In this document: in pieces, positions 8,748 to 20,676 of the stretch
Layout of the letters: each line of letters starts with the position of its first letter
Numbering within the stretch: position 1 is the first letter of the stretch
Assembly (NCBI RefSeq): GCF_000455205.1
Contig: NZ_AUWQ01000059.1
Location: 1-63,569 of the forward strand
Direction of reading: 5' to 3'
DNA length: 63,569 nucleotides
Origin: Mycobacterium sp. UM_CSW
Lineage (GTDB): Bacteria > Actinomycetota > Actinomycetes > Mycobacteriales > Mycobacteriaceae
Position numbers and translations under genes: made by a program
The notes under the pieces: model-generated
Told to the model about the DNA's origin: nothing
The model's input: the letters and a program-made list of their open reading frames with translations, nothing else
The model's database searches: none

Positions 8748-10268
8748 ATGACCACACAGATCCCGCACTTCATCGACGGGAAGCGCACCGCCGGCCAGTC
8801 CGACCGCACCGCCGACGTCTTCAACCCCAGCACCGGCCAGGTGCAGGCGAAGGTTCCGATGGCCGGCAAGGCCGACGTCGACGCGGCGGTGGCCTCGGCC
8901 GTCGAGGCCCAAAAGGATTGGGCGGCATGGAATCCGCAGCGACGCGCGCGGGTGATGATGCGCTTCATCGAGCTGGTCAACTCCAACAGCGACGAGCTCG
9001 CCGAGCTGCTGTCCCTGGAGCACGGCAAGACAGTCGCCGATTCCAAGGGCGACATCCAGCGCGGCATCGAGGTCATCGAGTTCTGCATCGGGATCCCACA
9101 CCTGCTCAAGGGTGAGTACAGCGAGGGCGCCGGCCCGGGCATCGACGTCTACTCGTTGCGCCAGCCGTTGGGCGTGGTCGCCGGCATCACGCCGTTCAAC
9201 TTCCCGGCGATGATCCCGCTGTGGAAGGCCGGGCCGGCGTTGGCGTGCGGAAACGCGTTCGTGCTCAAGCCCAGTGAGCGTGACCCGTCGGTCCCGGTGC
9301 GCCTGGCCGAGCTGTTCTTGGAGGCGGGCCTGCCGCCGGGCGTGTTCCAGGTGGTGCACGGCGACAAGGAGGCCGTCGACGCGATCCTGCACCACCCCGA
9401 CATCAAGGCCGTCGGTTTCGTCGGCAGCTCCGACATCGCGCACTACATCTACTCGACGGCCGCGGCCAACGACAAGCGGTCGCAGTGCTTCGGCGGCGCC
9501 AAGAACCACATGATCGTGATGCCCGACGCCGACCTCGACCAGGCCGTCGACGCGTTGATCGGCGCGGGGTACGGCAGCGCCGGCGAACGCTGCATGGCGA
9601 TCAGCGTCGCCGTGCCGGTCGGCGAGCAGACCGCGGATCGGTTGCGCGCCAGGCTGATCGAGCGGATCAACAACCTGCGCGTGGGCCACAGCCTGGACCC
9701 CAAGGCCGACTACGGCCCGCTGGTCACCGAGGCCGCGCTGGCGCGGGTGCGCGACTACATCGGCCAGGGCGTGGCCGCCGGCGCCGAGCTGGTGATCGAC
9801 GGGCGCGAGCGGACCAGCGACGACCTGACGTTCGGCGACGCCAACCTCGAGGGCGGATTCTTCATCGGCCCAACCCTTTTCGACCACGTCACCCCCGACA
9901 TGTCGATCTACACCGACGAGATCTTCGGGCCGGTGCTGTGCATCGTTCGTGCGCATGACTATGAAGAGGCCCTGCGGCTGCCCTCGGAGCACGAGTACGG
10001 CAACGGCGTGGCGGTCTTCACCCGCGACGGCGACACCGCCCGCGACTTCGTGTCCCGGGTGCAGGTGGGCATGGTCGGCGTCAACGTGCCGATCCCCGTC
10101 CCGGTGGCCTACCACACCTTCGGCGGCTGGAAGCGCTCCGGCTTCGGCGACCTGAACCAGCACGGGCCGGCCTCGATCCAGTTCTACACCAAGGTCAAGA
10201 CCGTCACGTCCCGCTGGCCGTCCGGCATCAAGGATGGCGCCGAATTCGTCATCCCGACAATGAATTAG
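8748..10268 (+). CDS. mmsA: Methylmalonate-semialdehyde dehydrogenase (acylating)
   Basis: Converts methylmalonate semialdehyde to propionyl-CoA with NAD and CoA in valine catabolism; cytosolic. The 506-residue aldehyde dehydrogenase has the catalytic nucleophile Cys282 in GSAGERCMAIS and the substrate loop ITPFNFPAM. The general-base Glu of ordinary aldehyde dehydrogenases is not found in its usual ELGG context; CFGGAKN stands there, as in CoA-dependent MMSDH enzymes. It is the first gene of mmsA-fadE9-mmsB, 9 bases before fadE9, and matches the M. tuberculosis Rv0753c-Rv0751c order. Confidence 0.95.
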   Translation: MTTQIPHFIDGKRTAGQSDRTADVFNPSTGQVQAKVPMAGKADVDAAVASAVEAQKDWAAWNPQRRARVMMRFIELVNSNSDELAELLSLEHGKTVADSKGDIQRGIEVIEFCIGIPHLLKGEYSEGAGPGIDVYSLRQPLGVVAGITPFNFPAMIPLWKAGPALACGNAFVLKPSERDPSVPVRLAELFLEAGLPPGVFQVVHGDKEAVDAILHHPDIKAVGFVGSSDIAHYIYSTAAANDKRSQCFGGAKNHMIVMPDADLDQAVDALIGAGYGSAGERCMAISVAVPVGEQTADRLRARLIERINNLRVGHSLDPKADYGPLVTEAALARVRDYIGQGVAAGAELVIDGRERTSDDLTFGDANLEGGFFIGPTLFDHVTPDMSIYTDEIFGPVLCIVRAHDYEEALRLPSEHEYGNGVAVFTRDGDTARDFVSRVQVGMVGVNVPIPVPVAYHTFGGWKRSGFGDLNQHGPASIQFYTKVKTVTSRWPSGIKDGAEFVIPTMN

Positions 10269-10277
10269 ACCCGCGAC

Positions 10278-11438
10278 ATGTTCACCCTGAACGACGACGA
10301 GCGGGTCATTACCGAGACGGCGGCCGCGTTCGCCGCCAAACGAATCGCCCCGCACGTGCTGGAATGGGATGCCACCAAGCACTTCCCGACCGACGTGCTG
10401 CGCGAGGCCGCCGAACTGGGCATGGCGGCCATCTACTGCCGCGAGGACGTCGGGGGCAGCGGGCTGCGCCGGCTCGACGGGGTCCGCATCTTCGAGCAGC
10501 TGGCGATCGCATGTCCGACCGTCGCCGCGTTTTTGTCGATTCACAACATGTGCGCCTGGATGATCGACAGCTTCGGCACCGACGAGCAACGCAAGGAATG
10601 GATCCCGCGGCTGGCGCCGATGGACGTCATCGCCAGCTACTGCCTCACGGAGCCGGGCGCCGGATCCGACGCCAGCGCGCTGAGCACCCGCGCGGTCAAA
10701 CAGGGCGGCGACTACGTGCTCGACGGCGTCAAGCAGTTCATCTCCGGCGCGGGGGCCTCGGACGTGTATGTGGTGATGGCCAGGACCGGCGGCGAGGGAC
10801 CGCGCGGCATCTCCGCCTTCATCGTCGAAAAGGGCGCTCCCGGGCTGAGTTTCGGCGCGCTCGAGGAGAAGATGGGCTGGCACGCGCAGCCCACCGCGCA
10901 GGTGATTCTGGAGGGCGTGCGGGTGCCCGCCGATGCGATGCTGGGCGGCGCGGACGGCGAGGGCGCCGGCTTCGGCATCGCGATGAACGGCCTCAACGGC
11001 GGTCGGCTCAACATCGCAGCCTGCTCCCTGGGCGGCGCGCAGGCCGCCTTCGACAAGGCCGGCGCGTACGTGCGGGAGCGCCACGCGTTCGGCAACTCTC
11101 TGCTCGACGAGCCGACCGTCCGGTTCACCCTGGCCGACATGGCCACCGGGCTGGAGACCTCGCGAATGATGTTGTGGCGGGCCGCAAGCGCGTTGGACGA
11201 CGACGACCCGGACAAGGTCGAGCTGTGCGCGATGGCCAAGCGCTACGTCACCGACACCTGCTTCGAGGTCGCCGACAAGGCCCTGCAACTGCACGGCGGC
11301 TACGGCTATCTGCGCGAGTACGGTCTGGAGAAGATCGTCCGCGACCTGCGGGTGCATCGCATCCTGGAAGGCACCAACGAGATCATGCGGGTGGTCATCG
11401 GCCGCGCCGAGGCCGCCCGATTCAGGGCAAGCGCGTAG
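10278..11438 (+). CDS. fadE9: Acyl-CoA dehydrogenase (isobutyryl-CoA type)
   Basis: FAD-dependent enzyme of 386 residues that probably oxidises isobutyryl-CoA to methacrylyl-CoA in the valine pathway. Acyl-CoA dehydrogenase signatures are present: YCLTEPGAGSDAS (FAD/substrate loop), GHG-type contacts replaced by LQLHGGYGYLREYGLEKIVRD, and the catalytic Glu in RILEGTNEIMR near the C-terminus. It sits between mmsA and mmsB with gaps of 9 and 12 bases, which supports the branched-chain role over general fatty-acid oxidation. Confidence 0.93.
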   Translation: MFTLNDDERVITETAAAFAAKRIAPHVLEWDATKHFPTDVLREAAELGMAAIYCREDVGGSGLRRLDGVRIFEQLAIACPTVAAFLSIHNMCAWMIDSFGTDEQRKEWIPRLAPMDVIASYCLTEPGAGSDASALSTRAVKQGGDYVLDGVKQFISGAGASDVYVVMARTGGEGPRGISAFIVEKGAPGLSFGALEEKMGWHAQPTAQVILEGVRVPADAMLGGADGEGAGFGIAMNGLNGGRLNIAACSLGGAQAAFDKAGAYVRERHAFGNSLLDEPTVRFTLADMATGLETSRMMLWRAASALDDDDPDKVELCAMAKRYVTDTCFEVADKALQLHGGYGYLREYGLEKIVRDLRVHRILEGTNEIMRVVIGRAEAARFRASA

Positions 11439-12352: not shown

Positions 12353-12901
12353 TCACTGCACGTTTCGCCCGAGGAACGCGGCCAGCTGGTCGGCCGGCGC
12401 GCGGCCGTGCGGGCACGGCCGCTCAGCGGCGAACGGCTTGTCCGGCCCGCGGAATTGCGGGCCCACGAAAGCGCGCACCGCTTCGAGTTCCTCGGCTGCC
12501 AGCTCGGGATCGAGATCGGTGGACTGGCCGGTGGCGGTCGCCAGATCCCAGGCGTGGGTCAGCACGTCGCTGGTGCGCATCCCGATATACATCTGCCCTG
12601 GGACCTGCCCGAACGGCAGCTTGAACGTGGTGGTCATCCCGTCCGGGGCCGCGAAGACCTCCTGCGCGGCAGCGGCGGACGCCCGGTGCGCCGCCGCGAT
12701 GTCGTCGGGACGTGCGGGCGGCTTATCGGCGCGGCCCGCCAATATCGCGACGCGCTCGTTGCCGCCGATGACGTGCTCGATGAGGTCACGAATCGTCCAC
12801 TCCGAGCAGGGTGTTCGGCCGCGGTACCGATCGGGGCTGACGTGGGCGAGGACGCCGGCGAACGCCTCCTGTGCGCGCTGGTGAGCAACTAGTGGGTCCA
12901 C
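12353..12901 (-). CDS. TIGR03086-type / DinB-mycothiol maleylpyruvate isomerase-like protein (Rv0738 orthologue)
   Basis: The protein is 182 residues from GTG 12901, preceded by AGGCAGGA, the same length as M. tuberculosis Rv0738. The longer open frame to 13060 runs into the MarR gene and is rejected. It opens with the four-helix pattern of the DinB/mycothiol-dependent isomerase superfamily (CSEWTIRDLIEHVIGGNERVA, with the His of the metal site). Later His-bearing elements include DVLTHAWDLATATG. Members bind a divalent metal and often use mycothiol, but the reaction is unknown here. It is the last gene of the minus-strand cluster that begins with the ThDP enzyme. Confidence 0.85.
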   Translation of the reverse strand: MDPLVAHQRAQEAFAGVLAHVSPDRYRGRTPCSEWTIRDLIEHVIGGNERVAILAGRADKPPARPDDIAAAHRASAAAAQEVFAAPDGMTTTFKLPFGQVPGQMYIGMRTSDVLTHAWDLATATGQSTDLDPELAAEELEAVRAFVGPQFRGPDKPFAAERPCPHGRAPADQLAAFLGRNVQ

Positions 12902-12923
12902 GGTCCTGCCTTTCTCCCGTTGT

Positions 12924-13427
12924 TCAGAAGTCGCCCGCATTGCGGCGCAACGTTTCGATGGATGACACCAGCGCCGCCGACTCGGCGGCATCCATTCCGA
13001 TGTCGGCGAACACCTGCTCGTTGAGCGTGACGGTGGCGTCCTCGACGGTGGAGCGGCCAAGATCGGTGATGGCCACCAGCGTCGTGCGCCCGTCGGTGGG
13101 GTGCGGCACCCGCTGCACCAGCCCGTCGGCCTCCAGCCGGCGGATGGCGTGGGTCACGCTGGTCACGTGCACCTGCAGGCGATCGGACGCCTTGGTGATC
13201 GGCAGCGCCCCGGTCCGGCTGAACGCCAGCAGCCGCAGCAACTCGTAGCGGGAGAAACTCAGGTCATAGGGGCGCAGCGCGGTCTCGACGCGGGCCAGCA
13301 GGATCTGGTGCGCGCGCATCACCGAGGTGACGGCGACCATGCCCTCCGACACGTCGCCCCACCCGGCGCGCTCCCAGTTGGCCCGCGCCGCGGCGATCGG
13401 ATCGCGTTTCGGGCTCGATGCGGCCAC
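12924..13427 (-). CDS. MarR-family transcriptional regulator (Rv0737 orthologue)
   Basis: A 167-residue winged-helix regulator. The recognition region reads ITKASDRLQVHVTSVTHAIRRLEADGLVQRV, followed by the wing HPTDGRTTLVAITDLG, the classic MarR layout. The start is GTG 13427. It lies 8 bases after the aminotransferase gene and about 22 bases before the Rv0738-like gene, so it is probably co-transcribed with the biosynthetic genes upstream. It could respond to their product or substrate. No operator was identified. Confidence 0.92.
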   Translation of the reverse strand: MAASSPKRDPIAAARANWERAGWGDVSEGMVAVTSVMRAHQILLARVETALRPYDLSFSRYELLRLLAFSRTGALPITKASDRLQVHVTSVTHAIRRLEADGLVQRVPHPTDGRTTLVAITDLGRSTVEDATVTLNEQVFADIGMDAAESAALVSSIETLRRNAGDF

Positions 13428-13435
13428 GCCCTTTC

Positions 13436-14488
13436 TTACCGCATCTGGGACCGAATCGGGACCTTTCCTATTGCCGACAGCACCGCCAGGGTCGACGCGC
13501 GGTTACCCACGGTGATCCGCGCGCCGCCGTCCGGGTAGTGGCGGACACGCAGCCCGCTGTCCGCGAACACCTCATGCCACTGCCTACCCCTCGATGGCAG
13601 GTACATGAAGTTCGCGTGGGCGTCCGTGGTGTAGATGTCCAACGCGCTCAGCCGCATCCGCAGGTAGCGGCGTTCGGCGTTGATCGACTGGATCCGTTGC
13701 AGCAGTTGGTCTTCGGCGTCGTACGACGCCGCGACCGCAAGCAGGCTGGTGAGCGCGATGCCGAACGGCAACTGCTGGGACCACAGGGTGGCGGCCAGCT
13801 CGGGTGACGCGAGGCCGTAGCCGATGCGCAGCCCGGCCAGCCCGTAGGCCTTGGAGAACGTCCGGACCACCAGGACGTTGGGAAAACGCGCGAGCAGCGC
13901 CGCGACGTCGATGCGGTGCTCGGGCGCGGCGAACTCGATGTAGGCCTCGTCGAGCAGCACGACGGTGTCACGCGGCACCCGGCGCAAAAACCGCGCCACC
14001 TCGTCTGCGCTCTCCAGCGTGCCGGTCGGGTTGTGCGGGCGGCACAGCACCACCACCCGGGCATCCCCGGCGGCGTCGGCCAGCCCGTCGAGGTCGTTGT
14101 GGCCGTCCGCGTCGAGGGGGACGAGCAGCGGGTGCAACCGGGCCATCCGGGCGATGATCGGATAACCGTCGAAGGTCGGCGACGCCATCGCGACCTTGTC
14201 ACCCGGGGCGGTCAGCGCGTGCAGGGCCTGCAACGCCACGCCCGTCGCGCCGGCGCCGAGCACCACCTGCTCGGCGGGCAGGCCGGCGTGGCCCGCGATC
14301 AGCCCGCGCAGCCGCTCGGGCAGGAACTCCGGATACCGGTTGACCGCGTAGATCGAACGGATCAACGCCGAGCGCACCGCCGGCAACGGCGGAAACGGAT
14401 TCTCGTTGAGCGACAACGCAAGCGGGTCGATCGCGGTGGGGAACGCCTCATCGATGTCGTCGGCGAAGGGGCTGCGGACGGGTTGCAT
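13436..14488 (-). CDS. PLP-dependent class I/II aminotransferase, HisC-like
   Basis: 350 residues with the fold type I aminotransferase pattern of histidinol-phosphate aminotransferases: LSLNENPFPPLP at the N-terminus, CRPHNPTGT, DEAYIEF, and the PLP lysine in RTFSKAYGLAGLRIGY. Its ATG overlaps the stop of the KAS III-like gene by one base (TGATG). The neighbours argue against a role in histidine synthesis: KAS III-like, SRPBCC and ThDP genes. I infer that it transaminates a ketone or acyloin made by those enzymes, or supplies an amino-acid-derived keto acid. A second general hisC-like function cannot be excluded. Confidence 0.88.
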   Translation of the reverse strand: MQPVRSPFADDIDEAFPTAIDPLALSLNENPFPPLPAVRSALIRSIYAVNRYPEFLPERLRGLIAGHAGLPAEQVVLGAGATGVALQALHALTAPGDKVAMASPTFDGYPIIARMARLHPLLVPLDADGHNDLDGLADAAGDARVVVLCRPHNPTGTLESADEVARFLRRVPRDTVVLLDEAYIEFAAPEHRIDVAALLARFPNVLVVRTFSKAYGLAGLRIGYGLASPELAATLWSQQLPFGIALTSLLAVAASYDAEDQLLQRIQSINAERRYLRMRLSALDIYTTDAHANFMYLPSRGRQWHEVFADSGLRVRHYPDGGARITVGNRASTLAVLSAIGKVPIRSQMR

Positions 14489-15507
14489 CAGCCCCGTCCG
14501 CCCCAGCGCACCGCCGCCGCGCCGGCGAAGTCACCGGCGTGGGCGAAGGCAGCCATCAGCACCACGTCGCCCGCCTCGAGCTGACCGTCGGATATCGCGT
14601 GGTCGAGGTTGACCGGGATGCCGGCGCCGAACAGGTTGCCGCACTGATCGAAGGTGTCGCGGTGGCGTTCGGGCGGCAGCTCGAGGGCCTCGCGCCAGTT
14701 GCGCAGGAACGCCCGGTTGGGCTGGTTGGTGACCAGCAGGTCGATGTCCTTGGTGGACAGGCCGATTCGATCACAGACCGCCAGCGCCACCTCGGGCACC
14801 TGCCGGTTGCCGCGGGCCAGCACCTTGGTGATCTTGCTCTCGGTGAAGCCGATCGAGCCCTCGCCGGGGCCGGCCTGCCACCACTTGCGGGGCGGGTCGA
14901 AGGACAGCGTCATCTCGCCGGCGTATTCGCCGTAGGTGCGGCACTCGACGTCGAGGATCGGCGACTGGTCGCCCACGGTGACCAGGGCGGCCGCCGCCCC
15001 GTCCCCGGGCACCGCCGACTGTGCCTTGCGGCGGATCGTCGGCTGGTCGAAGAACTGCCCGGCGGCGTTTTGCGCGATCGCGATCAGCGCGGTGTGCCCC
15101 TCGCCCGACGACAGCAGCTTGCGGGCCACGTTGAGCGCCAACACGAATGCCGCGCAGCCGCCGTTGTTCAGGTCGAGCACCCAGGACGGTCGCATGCCCA
15201 ACCGGTGCGCGATGCCGCCCCCCTGCCCGTAGAACGCCATGTCCGGCACCTGGGTGTGGGTGATCAGCACGTCGGCGCCCTCGACGACGTCGGGGCCATG
15301 CCGCTCGATCAGGCCCTGCACCGCCTGCTCGATCATGTCGATCGAGCTTTCCCCCGGCGCGACGTGATGGCGAAACTTCGGGGCGCGGAACATGAGATTG
15401 TCGCGCAGGTCGTCGGATTCGGCGAATTGCGCGTAATACTCGGCGCCGATCGGCTCACCGGGCAGATAGGTCGAGAGGTCGATCAGGCTGACGCTCGGCT
15501 TGGTCAT
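14488..15507 (-). CDS. KAS III (FabH)-like thiolase-fold enzyme with altered catalytic triad
   Basis: 339 residues of thiolase fold with the nucleophile Cys118 in LDLNNGGCAAFVLAL. FabH enzymes use Cys-His-Asn. Here the usual HQAN is TNQPN, so the His position is Asn261 (with Asn264 kept), while the third residue Asn291 is present in QCGNLFGAGIP. Loss of the His suggests acyl transfer, C-O or C-N bond formation, or a non-decarboxylating reaction rather than ordinary malonyl-ACP condensation. The gene is 3 bases downstream of the SRPBCC gene and overlaps the aminotransferase by one base, so the cluster is translated as a unit. Its substrate is unknown. Confidence 0.88.
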   Translation of the reverse strand: MTKPSVSLIDLSTYLPGEPIGAEYYAQFAESDDLRDNLMFRAPKFRHHVAPGESSIDMIEQAVQGLIERHGPDVVEGADVLITHTQVPDMAFYGQGGGIAHRLGMRPSWVLDLNNGGCAAFVLALNVARKLLSSGEGHTALIAIAQNAAGQFFDQPTIRRKAQSAVPGDGAAAALVTVGDQSPILDVECRTYGEYAGEMTLSFDPPRKWWQAGPGEGSIGFTESKITKVLARGNRQVPEVALAVCDRIGLSTKDIDLLVTNQPNRAFLRNWREALELPPERHRDTFDQCGNLFGAGIPVNLDHAISDGQLEAGDVVLMAAFAHAGDFAGAAAVRWGGRG

Positions 15508-15510
15508 GGT

Positions 15511-16158
15511 TCACCTCATCCACTTCGGGGTCACCGGTAACCCGTTGCGGTGCCGGTACTCGGCGATGGCCTTGAGGTTCTTCAGCTCCAGCAGGTGGCC
15601 GGCGCCGAACATGTCCCAGAAATCGCCCACCCACACCGGGCGCTGCGGCGGCGCGGTCTCCGGGTACGGGTTTTCGTCGTAGAACGGGTGATGGCAATTC
15701 GTCCACAGCACAACGGAACCCGGCTTGTCCAGGACCGTCTGCGCGTCGACGACCCGCATCAGGTAGATCATCCACAGGTGCTTGCCCTGGTCCCACGCGC
15801 AGTGGTAGTCGACGGTGCGGGCCTGTTCGTTGGCGACGGTCCGCGTGTAGATCTTGGTCTCCGAGCCGAGCCGGTCGTAGGCCAGCCACAGGCCGGGTTC
15901 GTCGGTGGGGGTGAAACCGCGCAGGCTGTAGGTCCACTCCTCGAGGCTGCGGGTGTCGGACATGTACTCGAACAACTCGTCCGGCGGGCAGTCGACGTAA
16001 TCGTTGACGGTGCAGTACTCCCCGAAGACCTGGTCGTGCGGGTAGACCGAGCGCATCATGTCCATGATGATCGGGGTGGCCTTTTCCCGGGGGCTGGTTT
16101 CGATGCGGGTCACACCGTCGAGGGGCGTGGGGATGTCATCGAGCGCTGGCAGCGACAT
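15511..16158 (-). CDS. SRPBCC (START/polyketide cyclase-like) protein
   Basis: A 215-residue protein with an SRPBCC-type start after a 50-residue extension: YCTVNDYVDCPPDELFEYMSDTRSLEEWTYSLRGF matches the beta-strand then cavity-helix opening of this superfamily. Late motifs include WTNCHHPFYDENPYP and DFWDMFGAGHLLELKNLKAIAEYR. These folds bind hydrophobic ligands and include aromatases and cyclases in polyketide clusters. It overlaps the end of the ThDP gene by 23 bases. In this operon it may shape or hydrolyse an intermediate. The assignment to the superfamily is good; the function is open. Confidence 0.75.
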   Translation of the reverse strand: MSLPALDDIPTPLDGVTRIETSPREKATPIIMDMMRSVYPHDQVFGEYCTVNDYVDCPPDELFEYMSDTRSLEEWTYSLRGFTPTDEPGLWLAYDRLGSETKIYTRTVANEQARTVDYHCAWDQGKHLWMIYLMRVVDAQTVLDKPGSVVLWTNCHHPFYDENPYPETAPPQRPVWVGDFWDMFGAGHLLELKNLKAIAEYRHRNGLPVTPKWMR

Positions 16159-17857
16159 CGGTCCGGTTCTCCTTTGCGATTGACGTCAAGAACGGTGCGA
16201 ACGGCGGCATCTCGTCGGCCGCGCATTCGACGCTGACGACGGCGGGCCCGTCGGTGGCCAGCACCGCGCGCATCCAGGCAGCCAGATGATCGAGGTCGTC
16301 GACGTCGACGGCCGTCAGCCCCGGGAACATCGCCGCCAGCCCGGCGCCCAGCCGGCTGGACCGAAATCGGTTGTAGCTGTAGAGGTCGTCGTAGAAGAGC
16401 TGCTCGCGGGTCACGCACATGGCGTGGGCGTTGTTGTTGAAGACCACGAACGTCACCGGCAGCCGGTACTGCAACGCGGTGTGCACCTCCATGCCGTGCA
16501 TGAAGAATGCCCCGTCCCCGGCCACCACCACGGTGCGCCCGGGGGGCCGCCCGCTGTTCGCGCGGCCGAACGCCATGCCGATGCCGGCGCCGAAACTGTA
16601 GCCCATGCCGCCCATGCCCAGCGCGACCGCGAACCTGCCGTCCCGGCGGGCCGGCAGATAGTGGATCGCCGCCGCGCCGGTGTTGCCGGCATCCACGACG
16701 ATGTCCGCGCCGTCGGGCAGGCAGCGATCCAGCACCGTCATCGCATCCCGGTAGCGCACCCCGGGCCCGGCGCACGGCGGCGGGGACAATTCGGTGTGGC
16801 GCACCGCGTCGGGCACCCGCACCCTCGGCGGCCGTCCCGCCCCGGACAGCGCCTGGGTCAGCATGCGCAGCGAGCCGCGCAGGTCGTCGGTGTGGACGTG
16901 CGTGCACGGAACATACGGCGGCGCCGAGCCGATCGAGACCGTCCGCACCGCCGCGAGGGCGTCGTCGAGCCCGGTGCGCGCGGTGACCGACAGGCGCGTG
17001 CCGACCACCAGGCACACGGCGCTGCCGGCCACCGCTTCAACCACACCGGGGTGGCCCATGACACCGGTCACCCCCAGCGCGGACGACGACCCGAGACCCG
17101 GTGTGCCGGCGACGTCCTTGGCATCGGGCACGGTCGCCACCCGCGCCCGCAGCACCGCGCGCAGGGCCTCCAGCTCGGCGCGGGCGTTGTCGCGGGCGAC
17201 CTGCTCGCCGACGATGATGGTGACCGGGCCGTTCGCGTCGCGCAGCAGCCCGACGATCGGATGCGGGTTGCCGATGGGGCGCAGCTCCTCAGAGGGCCAC
17301 CCGTTCTGCCCGCAAACCACGCTGCCCTGCTGAATGTCCTTGGGCAACAACAGCACCGCGGGGCCGCCGGTACGCGCAGCGGCGATCGCCCGCGTCAAGG
17401 CCGGTGCGGCGTCGGCGGGGCGCAGCACCCGCTCGCACGACACCGACACCGCGGAAAACAACGCCAGCGCGTTCAGCGAGCCGTTCTCGCCGCTGGTGTC
17501 CTGAAAGCTGCCGCGGCCGTCCAGGGCGGTCGGGGCTTGACCGACAAGCGCCAGCACCGGGACGCGGCTCGTCAGCGACTCCCCAAGGGCGGCAACAAGA
17601 TTCAGTGCCCCGCCGCCCGATGTCGCCGCGACCACGCCCAGCCCGGAGCCCAGCCCGGCCCCGCTGCGGCTGTAGCCGTCGGCCATGGCCGCGGCGGAGA
17701 ATTCGTGCTTGGCCAGCACGGCGGTGATGTCGCTGCGGAAGTGCGCGGCGTCGTAGAGGTCCTCGATGTTGGCGCCGTCGACACCGAAGATGTGGTCGAC
17801 GCCGACCGAGGCGAGCCGCTCGACGATGTGGTCGACCACTCGCTGCTTCCTGGGCAT
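16136..17857 (-). CDS. ThDP-dependent enzyme (acetolactate synthase/benzoylformate decarboxylase family)
   Basis: 573 residues in the three-domain layout of ThDP decarboxylases and ligases. The N-terminal PYR domain has the cofactor-activating Glu in AKHEFSAAAMADGYSR. A middle Rossmann-like domain follows, and the C-terminal PP domain has the GDG...NN ThDP/Mg motif (GDGAFFMHG to FVVFNNN). It could decarboxylate a 2-keto acid and join the active aldehyde to an acceptor. It is the first gene of the unusual cluster. ATG 17857 stands only 10 bases from a large hairpin and lacks a good ribosome site. GTG 17839 has AGGAAG 6 bases ahead and would give 567 residues, so it may be the real start. Confidence 0.88.
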   Translation of the reverse strand: MPRKQRVVDHIVERLASVGVDHIFGVDGANIEDLYDAAHFRSDITAVLAKHEFSAAAMADGYSRSGAGLGSGLGVVAATSGGGALNLVAALGESLTSRVPVLALVGQAPTALDGRGSFQDTSGENGSLNALALFSAVSVSCERVLRPADAAPALTRAIAAARTGGPAVLLLPKDIQQGSVVCGQNGWPSEELRPIGNPHPIVGLLRDANGPVTIIVGEQVARDNARAELEALRAVLRARVATVPDAKDVAGTPGLGSSSALGVTGVMGHPGVVEAVAGSAVCLVVGTRLSVTARTGLDDALAAVRTVSIGSAPPYVPCTHVHTDDLRGSLRMLTQALSGAGRPPRVRVPDAVRHTELSPPPCAGPGVRYRDAMTVLDRCLPDGADIVVDAGNTGAAAIHYLPARRDGRFAVALGMGGMGYSFGAGIGMAFGRANSGRPPGRTVVVAGDGAFFMHGMEVHTALQYRLPVTFVVFNNNAHAMCVTREQLFYDDLYSYNRFRSSRLGAGLAAMFPGLTAVDVDDLDHLAAWMRAVLATDGPAVVSVECAADEMPPFAPFLTSIAKENRTDVAASAR

Positions 17858-17867
17858 GCCTGTAACA

Positions 17868-17901
17868 CGACGCGCGGCGAACTTGAGTTCACCGCGCGTC
17901 G
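17868..17901. terminator. 15-bp stem hairpin between rslA and the ThDP gene
   Basis: The arms at 17868-17882 and 17887-17901 pair over 15 positions with one G-U/mismatch and a 4-base loop (TTGA). The plus-strand side is followed by GTTTTTAC, so as a classic intrinsic terminator it faces the plus strand. On the minus strand it would fold in the RNA right after the rslA stop. It probably ends sigL-rslA transcription and separates it from the ThDP operon, which therefore needs its own promoter or readthrough. Confidence 0.7.
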
Positions 17902-17916
17902 GTTTTTACAGACGGG

Positions 17917-18687
17917 TTACAGCGAACGCTGCAGCAGAACCTGCCCGCTGTCAGCGGAAACCACTTGCACGGCAGCGATCTGGTCGACCGGCGTCGAGAT
18001 GCTGCCCGCGGGCGTGGCGGTGTGACCGGGTTCGGCCACCCACGTCGCCAACCGGGTTTGGCTGCCGTCGCGACCCACGACGACCATCGCCAGCGTGTCG
18101 TGGTGTGCGTTCAGCGGAGCCAGGCAGACACACTTCAGGTTGATCGACGTCCCCCAATGTTGGCTGGACAGCTGCACCGTGGAGGCCAACAGGGTGGTGC
18201 CGATCTGCGCCATCGGCTGCGAGGAACCGGCCACCTGCTGCGCGGGCGCCGAGTTCCCCTGCACCCCGACCAGCACGCCAATCCCCAGCACCGCGGCCGC
18301 GGCCGACGATGCCACCCACGTCGCCACCCGGGCGCGGCGCCGACGCCAGCGCACCGTTGCGAGCAACGAGGGCAACAACTCCGGCGAGATCTCCGGCGCC
18401 ACCGTTGCGGTGCGGCCGGACTCATTCATCGCGGCCACCTGTTCGGCGTCGAGCTGGGACAGCAGGGCCGGCACGCCACTCAGATCGGCGACGGCCTCCC
18501 GGCATGCCGGGCAGCCGGCCATGTGCGCCTCGAACTCGCGGCGGTCGGAAGCCGACAGCGACCCCAACACGTATGCGGCATCCCACATCGCGTAGCGGTG
18601 ATCGTCTTCCACGGTCAACACCTCTTTGTCAAACGGGTTGTCACCCGGCGGGCCGATGCCCCGTAGCGGCGTCCTCATCTCGTCCAT
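17917..18687 (-). CDS. rslA: Anti-sigma-L factor
   Basis: A membrane anti-sigma factor of 256 residues that holds SigL. The cytosolic zinc-associated anti-sigma motif His55-x3-Cys59-x2-Cys62 (HMAGCPACR) is intact. One membrane span lies at about 122-142, followed by an extracytoplasmic domain. The C-terminal half is very close to the RslA sequence I remember from M. tuberculosis, including CVCLAP and EPGHTATPAGSISTPVDQIAAVQVV. RslA is known to release SigL when its zinc-thiol site is oxidised. It lies 46 bases downstream of sigL, as in M. tuberculosis Rv0735-Rv0736. Confidence 0.95.
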   Translation of the reverse strand: MDEMRTPLRGIGPPGDNPFDKEVLTVEDDHRYAMWDAAYVLGSLSASDRREFEAHMAGCPACREAVADLSGVPALLSQLDAEQVAAMNESGRTATVAPEISPELLPSLLATVRWRRRRARVATWVASSAAAAVLGIGVLVGVQGNSAPAQQVAGSSQPMAQIGTTLLASTVQLSSQHWGTSINLKCVCLAPLNAHHDTLAMVVVGRDGSQTRLATWVAEPGHTATPAGSISTPVDQIAAVQVVSADSGQVLLQRSL

Positions 18688-18733
18688 CTCCTGTCACCCA
18701 TCAAGCATTCGGAGCCGACGACCGTCTGGATGG

Positions 18734-19282
18734 TCATCGCGTGACTCCAAGTTCCTGCAGAGTGAGCCGCAACGCCCGCACGGCATAGTGTAGTCGCGAC
18801 TTCACGGTTCCTTCAGCGATCTCGAGGTCGGTAGCAATCTGCGCGGTTGTCCAGCCGCGGTAGTAGGACCGCTCGATCACCGCCCGGTGCTCGGCGGACA
18901 ACTGCGTCATGGCCTCGGCTATCAGCAGCCGGTCCAGCGCCGCGTTCACCTCGTCCGGCGTCGATTGCTCGGGCGCCCCCGATTCGTCCAGCGAACCGAC
19001 GACGTTGCGGTACCTGGCGCTGCGTCGGTCGTCGATGATCATGTTGCGCGCCACGGTGAACAACCACGCCCGCGCCGACCTCTCGGTGTCGCCGATGACC
19101 TCCGGATGTTGCCAGGCCCGCAACAGCGTCTCCTGGACGACGTCCTCGGCCTGGCTGGCGTCCCCCGTCAACCGGAGCGCATAGCGCCACAAGACCGCGG
19201 CGTGTTCGTCGTAGAGCGCCTTCATCAGAGCGGCCTCGGCAGCAGCCCCGGACGCCCCCCGAGTGCCGGCCACACGAGCCAC
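18734..19282 (-). CDS. sigL: ECF RNA polymerase sigma factor SigL
   Basis: A 182-residue ECF sigma factor nearly identical in pattern to M. tuberculosis SigL: region 2 with DEHAAVLWRYALRLTGD and AEDVVQETLLRAWQHPEVIGD, region 4 with RSYYRGWTTAQIATDLEIAEGTVKSRLHYAVRALR. The start is GTG 19282 behind a very strong ribosome binding site (AGGAGGTGA). SigL is known to control its own operon, pks10-pks7 and mpt53-type secreted thiol genes in M. tuberculosis. Its likely autoregulated promoter overlaps the mapA stop codon. rslA follows and encodes its antagonist. Confidence 0.96.
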   Translation of the reverse strand: MARVAGTRGASGAAAEAALMKALYDEHAAVLWRYALRLTGDASQAEDVVQETLLRAWQHPEVIGDTERSARAWLFTVARNMIIDDRRSARYRNVVGSLDESGAPEQSTPDEVNAALDRLLIAEAMTQLSAEHRAVIERSYYRGWTTAQIATDLEIAEGTVKSRLHYAVRALRLTLQELGVTR

Positions 19283-19302
19283 TCGATCACCTCCTGCCCT
19301 CA

Positions 19303-19330
19303 GAAACGAGTGGAGCAGGCGTTTAGTTCA
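19303..19330 (-). promoter_or_regulatory. SigL-type autoregulatory promoter
   Basis: On the minus strand TGAACT (19330-19325), 16 bases, then CGTTTC (19308-19303) resembles the SigL consensus as I recall it (TGAACC with a CGT-type -10). It lies 21 bases upstream of the sigL GTG. The first three bases of the -35 are the mapA stop codon TGA. Confidence 0.6.
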
Positions 19331-20128
19331 GCCGACCGTCAGGATGCGCGGCCCGGAATCGGTCACCGCGACGGTGTGCTCCCAATGCGCCGCGCGCGAC
19401 CCGTCGGCGGTCGTGACGGTCCATTCGTCGTCGAGCACCCTTGTTTTGCTGGTTCCCAGCGTCAGCATGGGTTCGATCGCGAGCACCGAGCCCGGGGCCA
19501 GCAGGGGCCCCCGCCCGGGCGAGCCCTCGTTGGGCAGGAAAGGGTCCATGTGCATTTGCCGGCCGATGCCGTGACCGCCGTAGCCCTCGACGATCCCGAA
19601 CGCGAGCCCGTAGCGGGCCGCGGCGGCGCGGGTGCCCATTTCAATGGCGTGCGCCACGTCGGTCAGCCGGTTGCCGACGACCATCGCCGCGATGCCGGCC
19701 TGCAGCGACTCCCTGGTCGCGTCGCACAGCGCTTCGTCGGCCTCATCCAGCCTCCCGACCCCGAAGGTGATGGCGGCGTCGCCGTGCCAGCCGTCCAGCA
19801 CCGCGCCGCAGTCGATGGACACCAGGTCGCCGGGCGCCAGTACTTCGGCGGCGGACGGGATGCCGTGCACGACGCGGTCGTTGACGGAGGCGCAGATCGA
19901 CGCCGGGTAGCCGTGATAACCCAGGAACGACGGGACCGCCCCGGCCTCGCGGATCACCGACTCGGCGATCTCGTCGAGGCTGAGGGTGGACGCACCCTCG
20001 ACCGCGGCCGCGTGGACCGCCTGCAGCGCGGCGGCGACCACGGCGCCGGCCGCCGCCATCGCGTCGAGCTCACCGGGGCTGCGCTGCGGCACGACCCTGC
20101 GACTCCGCAGCCGCGCCAGCGCGCTCAT
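19328..20128 (-). CDS. mapA: Methionine aminopeptidase, type I
   Basis: Removes the initiator Met from new proteins; cytosolic metalloenzyme of 266 residues. The conserved metal ligands and substrate His are visible in order: [14 protein letters not shown] (His), [13 protein letters not shown] (two Asp), [11 protein letters not shown] (His), AIEPML (Glu) and WEHTVAVT (Glu). It follows adk by 2 bases in the order secY-adk-mapA, which matches Rv0732-Rv0734. Mycobacteria have a second enzyme (mapB) elsewhere that carries an N-terminal extension; none is present here. Confidence 0.95.
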
Positions 20129-20130
20129 GA

Positions 20131-20676
20131 TTACTTGCCCAGCGCCCGCAGCGCGCGGGCGAACACCTCGTCCACCGTGCCGACCGCGTCGACCGTCTTC
20201 AATTCGCTGCTGTAGTACTCCAGCAGCGGCGCCGTCTCGTCGCGGTAGACCTTCATCCGGTTGAGGATGACGTCGTCGGTGTCATCGGCCCGGCCGCGCC
20301 CCTTGAGCCGGTGCAGCAGTTCGTCCTGCGAGACGCGGAATTCGACCACGGCGTCGATGTCGGTGCCCCGCCGTTCGAGCATCTCGTGCAGAGCCTTGGC
20401 CTGCTCGAGGGAGCGCGGGTAGCCGTCCAGGATGAAACCGTTGGCCGCGTCCGGGTCGTCGAGCCGGTCGTCGACGAGTTGGTTGGTCAGCTCGGAAGGC
20501 ACCAGGTCGCCGGCGTCGAGGTAGCGCTTGGCCTCCAGGCCGAGTTTGGTGCCGTTTTCGATGTTGTTGCGGAAGAGCTCCCCGGTCGAGATTTGCGGGA
20601 TGCCAAGCTTTTCGGCGAGCTTTTCGGCCTGCGTACCCTTGCCCGCCCCGGGCGGTCCCAGCAAAACCACTCTCAC
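20131..20676 (-). CDS. adk: Adenylate kinase
   Basis: Catalyses ATP + AMP to 2 ADP; 181 residues, cytosolic. It begins with the P-loop [15 protein letters not shown], then [11 protein letters not shown] (AMP site), [14 protein letters not shown], and the short LID typical of the mycobacterial enzyme ([19 protein letters not shown]), which lacks the zinc cysteines of long forms. The start is GTG 20676, overlapping the secY stop (GTGA), which gives the known family length. An extended upstream frame is only the secY region in another frame. Confidence 0.97.

Follow-up and report, generated by a model that had tools for sequence, protein, structure and literature searches.

A four-gene operon in Mycobacterium sp. 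UM_CSW that probably builds a carbazole-type aromatic core under SigL control

Mycobacterium sp. UM_CSW carries, on a contig of 63,569 nucleotides (NCBI RefSeq assembly GCF_000455205.1, contig NZ_AUWQ01000059.1, positions 1 to 63,569; here called the window), a compact operon of four biosynthetic genes that probably builds a carbazole-type aromatic core under the control of the sigma factor SigL. We favour this reading because the operon holds one gene for each core role of the pathway, namely those of CqsB7, CqsB3, CqsB1 and CqsB2. In the carquinostatin pathway, as told in PMC7466098, CqsB7 deaminates tryptophan to indole-3-pyruvate as the first step, the thiamine diphosphate (ThDP) enzyme CqsB3 couples indole-3-pyruvate to pyruvate, CqsB1—an enzyme resembling β-ketoacyl-acyl carrier protein synthase III (KASIII)—condenses the CqsB3 product with an acyl group borne on acyl carrier protein (ACP), and CqsB2 then closes ring A.

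The four genes lie on the minus strand in the order ThDP enzyme (16136..17857; Pfam TPP_enzyme N, M and C domains), SRPBCC protein (15511..16158), KASIII-like enzyme (14488..15507; Pfam ACP_syn_III and ACP_syn_III_C) and aminotransferase (13436..14488), separated in turn by a 23-base overlap, a 3-base gap and a 1-base overlap, all as initially annotated. Relatives were sought class-wide (28 of 394 genomes, our own 6.39 Mb assembly included) and in one Streptomyces-like genus (36 of 392), a tentative label guessed partly from gene content. In one genome collection, relatives are encoded on 493 stretches, and counts out of 80 refer to the best 80 of these; the best match was locus L013 and, among the matches listed, which include M. 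sphagni and M. llatzerense, the best named one came from Mycobacterium sp. E796. A search for the four families in this order found them contiguous in 75/80 loci, which puts the arrangement far beyond chance, and directly after the anti-sigma factor gene rslA in 51/80. The four genes are thus a real, tightly packed operon and are probably co-transcribed, in agreement with the initial annotation.

The SRPBCC protein, first annotated as a possible cyclase, matched a single protein in the PDB at E-values up to 1: the carbazole synthase CqsB2 (6ipv/6ipw; E 4.2e-48 for 6ipv). No Pfam family matched it at E 0.001. It fits a CqsB2-type carbazole synthase homologue, sharing four of the five named catalytic residues (Y144, Y172, H206 and E209 are identical), with E105 replaced by Asp. 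This replacement separates two groups of loci. Group I, with the order ThDP>SRPBCC>KAS and often an aminotransferase gene behind, takes in the mycobacteria, other genera of the family and most Streptomyces-like loci; group II, with the order KAS>SRPBCC>ThDP, comprises the Cqs-type loci L120 and L192–L195, where the trio is likewise adjacent and with which CqsB2 itself groups. Residue 105 is Asp in 124/124 group I cyclases and Glu in all six of group II, CqsB2 included, while within group I Y144, H206 and E209 are present in 124/124 rows and Y172 in 123/124, the only exception being a shortened copy in L085. That locus, from M. shimoidei, has a full-length cyclase gene after rslA (10001-10666) and, 8 kb away, a second ThDP-cyclase-KAS set (18076-20663) that contains the shortened copy with its one changed catalytic position. 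Mean pairwise identity of the cyclase was 0.87 across 65 loci (0.83 for map), a level consistent with purifying selection.

In trees of the fetched rows, the two groups parted with a support of 1.0 for the cyclase (a single branch dividing the window's group from the one containing CqsB2), 1.0 for the ThDP enzyme and 0.998 for KAS, and the mycobacterial rows formed a single clade (support 0.90 for the cyclase, 0.62 for KAS and 1.0 for the ThDP enzyme); these supports come from the trees as built, without re-rooting. Group II proteins are 35–36% (ThDP) and 39–44% (SRPBCC) identical to those of the window.

The ThDP enzyme retains the Glu of the KHE motif and the GDG...NN motif, shares the stretches GQ-P-----GRG-FQD and MC-(T/S)R-Q with the group II enzymes, and has BbmA (E 3.9e-46) and CsmA (E 1.5e-40) as its best PDB matches; a literature search on these two proteins yielded nothing relevant among the papers listed. 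Its gene adjoins the cyclase gene, as does that of the carboligase in the carbazole core pathway, and the enzyme fits the carboligase role of CqsB3/NzsH. The KASIII-like enzyme, initially described as an altered thiolase-fold enzyme, is altered indeed: aligned to FabH, it keeps Cys and Asn, with Asn (TNQPN) in place of the catalytic His. This Cys-Asn-Asn site recurs in 122/123 group I rows (the exception is L038, where the KAS match is split), set against Cys-His-Asn in 5/5 Cqs-type rows and in 2/2 second KASIII rows. By its family the enzyme fits the role of CqsB1/NzsJ. On alignment the window operon thus falls within a subgroup marked by two fixed replacements in active sites, KAS His to Asn and CqsB2 Glu105 to Asp.

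These two diagnostic substitutions could also be read as the mark of a different product. Group I would then have the fold and the early reactions in common with the known pathway, and the altered KAS and cyclase would lead to a mono-oxygenated or open-chain indole product, or to another aromatic compound or an acyloin; this agrees with the statement that no machinery for mono-oxygenated carbazoles has yet been identified (PMC7466098). We think this improbable: the other four CqsB2 residues are kept almost without exception, and carbazoles are the products attributed to the chlocarbazomycin (chlCz) cluster, to which some group I loci bear a resemblance.

The aminotransferase is a HisC/PheAT-like class I enzyme (PRK03321, E 3e-88, under that model's curated cut-off) with the TFSK lysine in 101/101 rows (80 by pattern, 21 by eye), and fits the role of CqsB7/NzsD. 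At E 1.3e-54 its best PDB match is 4r2n, a putative phenylalanine aminotransferase, and this, together with the fixed changes in KAS and cyclase, lends something to the idea that the same chemistry acts on phenylpyruvate or 4-hydroxyphenylpyruvate and gives a naphthalene or quinone-type ring and no carbazole. A benzene ring is, as general chemistry has it, a poorer nucleophile for the ring closure. The CQS pathway moreover uses its aminotransferase, and chlCz its HisC-like one, on tryptophan, and NzsH has been described as part of a separate clade that takes indole-3-pyruvate as donor (PMC9822442), so that we consider a non-indole keto acid unlikely, if somewhat less so than the different indole product.

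The initial annotation had instead proposed that a ThDP-dependent condensation is followed by transamination, giving an amino-ketone or acyl-amine. The ThDP enzyme and the aminotransferase do occur together, but the characterised sets place the aminotransferase upstream, as the first step to a carbazole product (PMC7466098), several group I loci with ThDP-SRPBCC-KAS had no aminotransferase match within the fetched stretch, and the cyclase would be left without a role; this product now seems very improbable. A generic housekeeping role as acetolactate synthase and HisC was also rejected: in the rows shown, the ThDP enzyme, KAS and aminotransferase fall below curated cut-offs, and the cyclase would go unexplained.

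Upstream of the operon, on the same strand as the four genes and the two that follow them, lie rslA (17917..18687), for a zinc-type anti-sigma factor (Pfam zf-HC2) with an HxxxCxxC motif that reads HMAGCPAC in the translation, and an extracytoplasmic function sigma factor gene (18734..19282; Pfam Sigma70_r2 and r4) that we take to be sigL from its position and from synteny. A predicted SigL promoter, TGAACT-N16-CGTGT (17865..17891, minus strand), precedes the operon and would allow a leaderless start at 17857; a second predicted SigL promoter precedes sigL (19304..19330, minus strand; exact match in the window). The pattern TGAAC[CT]-N16-CGT was found upstream of the ThDP gene in all 51 loci in which that gene follows rslA, against 0.26 expected by mononucleotide shuffling; the spacer is 16 bases long in every case and its letters vary, and the loci are related and hence not independent cases. 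The pattern also occurs in 21/24 other mycobacterial loci, some with genes inserted between rslA and the ThDP gene, in 2/45 other loci, and upstream of sigL itself in 71/89; it was found neither upstream of MarR (0/18 and 0/71) nor ahead of the ThDP gene in the group II loci. Because sigL carries the same motif and the motif matches the SigL consensus, we read it as a SigL promoter, which would probably place the operon under SigL control. In the 6.4 Mb genome a strict form (CGTNT) had 24 matches, against 10 for a reversed control, among them a type III polyketide synthase (PKS) gene and a redoxin-fold gene read as Mpt53-like, both of which we take to be SigL targets. A pattern restricted to TGAACC was discarded, as it gave one unrelated match and missed the TGAACT sites of the window. 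An inverted repeat (17858..17913, minus strand; two stems, of 15 and 8 pairs, and a small internal loop; fold energy −40.1 kcal/mol, z −7.24) covers the −35/−10 region of this promoter, both in the window and in some relatives, is absent from many others, and is a possible operator. As a conserved terminator this hairpin between rslA and the ThDP gene was rejected, being seen in only some relatives while the promoter hexamers are conserved.

The pathway as we infer it—substrates, product and cellular regulation alike—would run as follows. The HisC/PheAT-like enzyme would convert L-tryptophan to indole-3-pyruvate, which the ThDP enzyme would couple in the manner of CqsB3; a host ACP or coenzyme A would supply the acyl group that loads the Cys of the KASIII-like enzyme, and this enzyme would condense with the resulting acid, with loss of CO2; and the SRPBCC cyclase would close and aromatise ring A before rearrangement of the unstable product sets in. 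The likeliest role of the product, by analogy, would be that of an antioxidant or redox-active lipid, since bacterial carbazoles have been described as antioxidants. In M. tuberculosis, oxidation of RslA leads to loss of zinc and of affinity for SigL (PMC2877774), and were the RslA encoded here to respond as its counterpart does, production would be redox-responsive; redox input to the operon is plausible on this analogy.

Genes for later steps appear to be scattered. In L019 and L085 the core lies near a flavin adenine dinucleotide (FAD) monooxygenase gene, DUF4389 and an FtsX exporter, and in L132, L072, L083 and L089 near some of AMP ligase, MMPL, O-methyltransferase, flavin-containing monooxygenase (FMO) and cytochrome P450 (P450) genes. 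Where the core stands away from sigL (L132, L133, L072, L083), its neighbours include some of AMP ligase, MMPL exporter, O-methyltransferase and P450, and this suggests an exported, lipid-like product. In our own genome, an FAD monooxygenase gene with the motif upstream (L286) encodes a protein 66–71% identical to core-linked ones. Orthologues of this enzyme (E up to 1e-60) occur in 20 of the 37 cyclase-positive and none of the 23 cyclase-negative genomes among the 60 sampled in the genus (P 3.8e-6, a value that ignores relatedness); in 20 of the loci fetched they are found close to the core. At 9,415-15,513 of L285, also in our genome, O-methyltransferase, FMO and P450 genes each have the motif upstream, three motifs within 4.7 kb, and this is a possible satellite tailoring locus: the FMO is 68% identical to that of L072 and the P450 46–52% identical to six core-linked P450s. 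P450 homologues (E up to 1e-90) were found in 12 genomes, all cyclase-positive; the four closest (66–100%) have the motif 10–11 bases before the start (4/4), while the other eight, each within 8.3 kb of the cyclase gene, have none at that place (in L283 it lies at 512 bases). These unlinked same-motif genes—FAD monooxygenase, FMO, P450 and perhaps O-methyltransferase—probably tailor the product. A gene for a 227-amino-acid methyltransferase in our genome (L287, 6504-7222) has its start codon 8 bases past a SigL-type motif.

Several observations weigh against a carbazole product or against its control by SigL. The operon contains no ACP gene; the loss of His from KAS could change or abolish decarboxylative condensation; and the adjacent KAS of Cqs-type loci is just 27–29% identical to the window enzyme. 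A carbazole-pathway family defined by a Cys-His-Asn KASIII partner, a presumptive definition drawn from the Cqs-type rows, would leave out the window operon with its Cys-Asn-Asn enzyme. Phenylalanine and histidinol-phosphate enzymes are the closest to the aminotransferase, which leaves room for a keto acid other than an indolic one, and the predicted AlphaFold structure of the cyclase was poor (mean predicted local distance difference test score, pLDDT, 54) and was not used. On the regulatory side, recognition of the operon motif by SigL is presumptive; no usable source for the SigL consensus came up in a literature search. A loose form of the motif had 112 matches genome-wide against 34 for its reversed control, and several of the 24 strict matches lie inside coding frames. 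The motif stands within 150 bases upstream of the FAD monooxygenase gene in 6 of 20 orthologues (0.005 expected), and in four more (L261, L264–L266) the preceding sequence reads as the end of rslA. The site of the L285 FMO matches the loose form only, and nothing in the core loci was closely homologous to the L285 O-methyltransferase. Finally, growth of an M. tuberculosis sigL mutant has been reported to be poor when iron is low (PMC10449499), and redox may therefore not be the main input.

The initial annotation extended the operon to six genes and suggested that the last two, for a MarR regulator and a DinB-like protein, could serve the pathway, but neither looks like part of it. The Rv0737-like MarR gene (12924..13427, minus strand) follows the aminotransferase gene after 8 bases, and is a genus core gene: MarR was present at 81% identity or more in 30/30 same-genus genomes without a cyclase match. 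Eighteen of these 30 keep rslA, within about 270 bases of MarR in every case (18/18), which bears out the placing of the block between these two genes; the remaining 12 had no sigL-rslA in the fetched stretch. Two of the 30 (L217 and L218) have a ThDP relative elsewhere (72% and 64%), and neither a cyclase nor a KAS match lies beside it. Pairwise distances of the four operon proteins track those of map and MarR (r 0.63–0.88, 65 loci), as expected from descent with losses. Rv0737 has been reported to bind the sigL-rslA promoter and to increase its expression (PMC13002591). The Rv0738-like gene (12353..12901, minus strand; a TIGR03086 metal-binding protein by NCBIfam) probably starts at a GTG at 12901 rather than at the TTG of the longer open frame. 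It is present in 14/80 loci, directly after MarR in 13, although 70/80 extend more than 900 bases past MarR, and is absent even from L013. We therefore treat both genes as neighbours and not as dedicated parts of the pathway.

The operon, initially called undescribed, is built from enzyme families known from carbazole biosynthesis; the chemistry is known, and what is new is the subgroup with its two fixed active-site changes, the host lineage and the regulatory context. Carbazole-type alkaloids have so far been known mainly from Streptomyces, and a search of the open-licence PMC literature found no report of such a pathway in Mycobacterium. A compact version of four genes appears to be present in many mycobacteria. 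With the proposal, the SigL/RslA switch would gain a defined small molecule as its output. A KASIII variant that lacks the catalytic His is also predicted, and four small enzymes would suffice to put the question of mono-oxygenated carbazoles to the test. More broadly, and with rather less than even confidence, we suggest that cassette-bearing mycobacteria make a carbazole-type redox alkaloid, probably lipid-tailored, with SigL/RslA as the stress switch for the core operon and the scattered same-motif tailoring genes; that cassette-free species have SigL without this output; and that a Cys-Asn-Asn KAS paired with an Asp cyclase forms a second chemical branch of carbazole biosynthesis.

Among known systems, the M. 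tuberculosis SigL regulon, comprising sigL-rslA, pks10 and mpt53, has the same shape of promoter as is found here ahead of sigL, of a type III PKS gene and of a redoxin-fold gene read as Mpt53-like; beyond these, the genome studied here has a carbazole-type operon and tailoring oxygenases. Lipocarbazoles presumably come from the same bacterial order, with Tsukamurella as a producer; no lipocarbazole gene cluster turned up in our literature search. They are a 3-oxygenated group (PMC7466098). The cqs and nzs clusters of Streptomyces share with the window operon an aminotransferase, a ThDP carboligase, a KASIII-like enzyme and a CqsB2-type cyclase, whereas Cqs-type loci differ in gene order, in the Cys-His-Asn KAS and in the Glu105 cyclase, and cqs and nzs carry a pathway ACP, a second KASIII and prenyltransferase genes (PMC7466098) that the window operon is without. 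In several gene types and protein lengths the chlCz cluster (PMC10100901) has counterparts in three loci of group I (L186, L187 and L191), a likeness of types and lengths rather than of compared sequences: they have an 83-amino-acid ACP (Pfam PP-binding), short-chain dehydrogenases/reductases (SDRs), a KAS of 338–341 amino acids and an FAD oxidoreductase (440–441 amino acids in L186 and L191). The three also hold genes outside the chlCz table (a CMAS-like methyltransferase, an MFS transporter and a desaturase), and chlCz for its part has tailoring genes outside its cluster (PMC10100901). Compared with chlCz, the mycobacterial operon is pared down, without ACP, SDR or oxidoreductase, and has its place at sigL-rslA.

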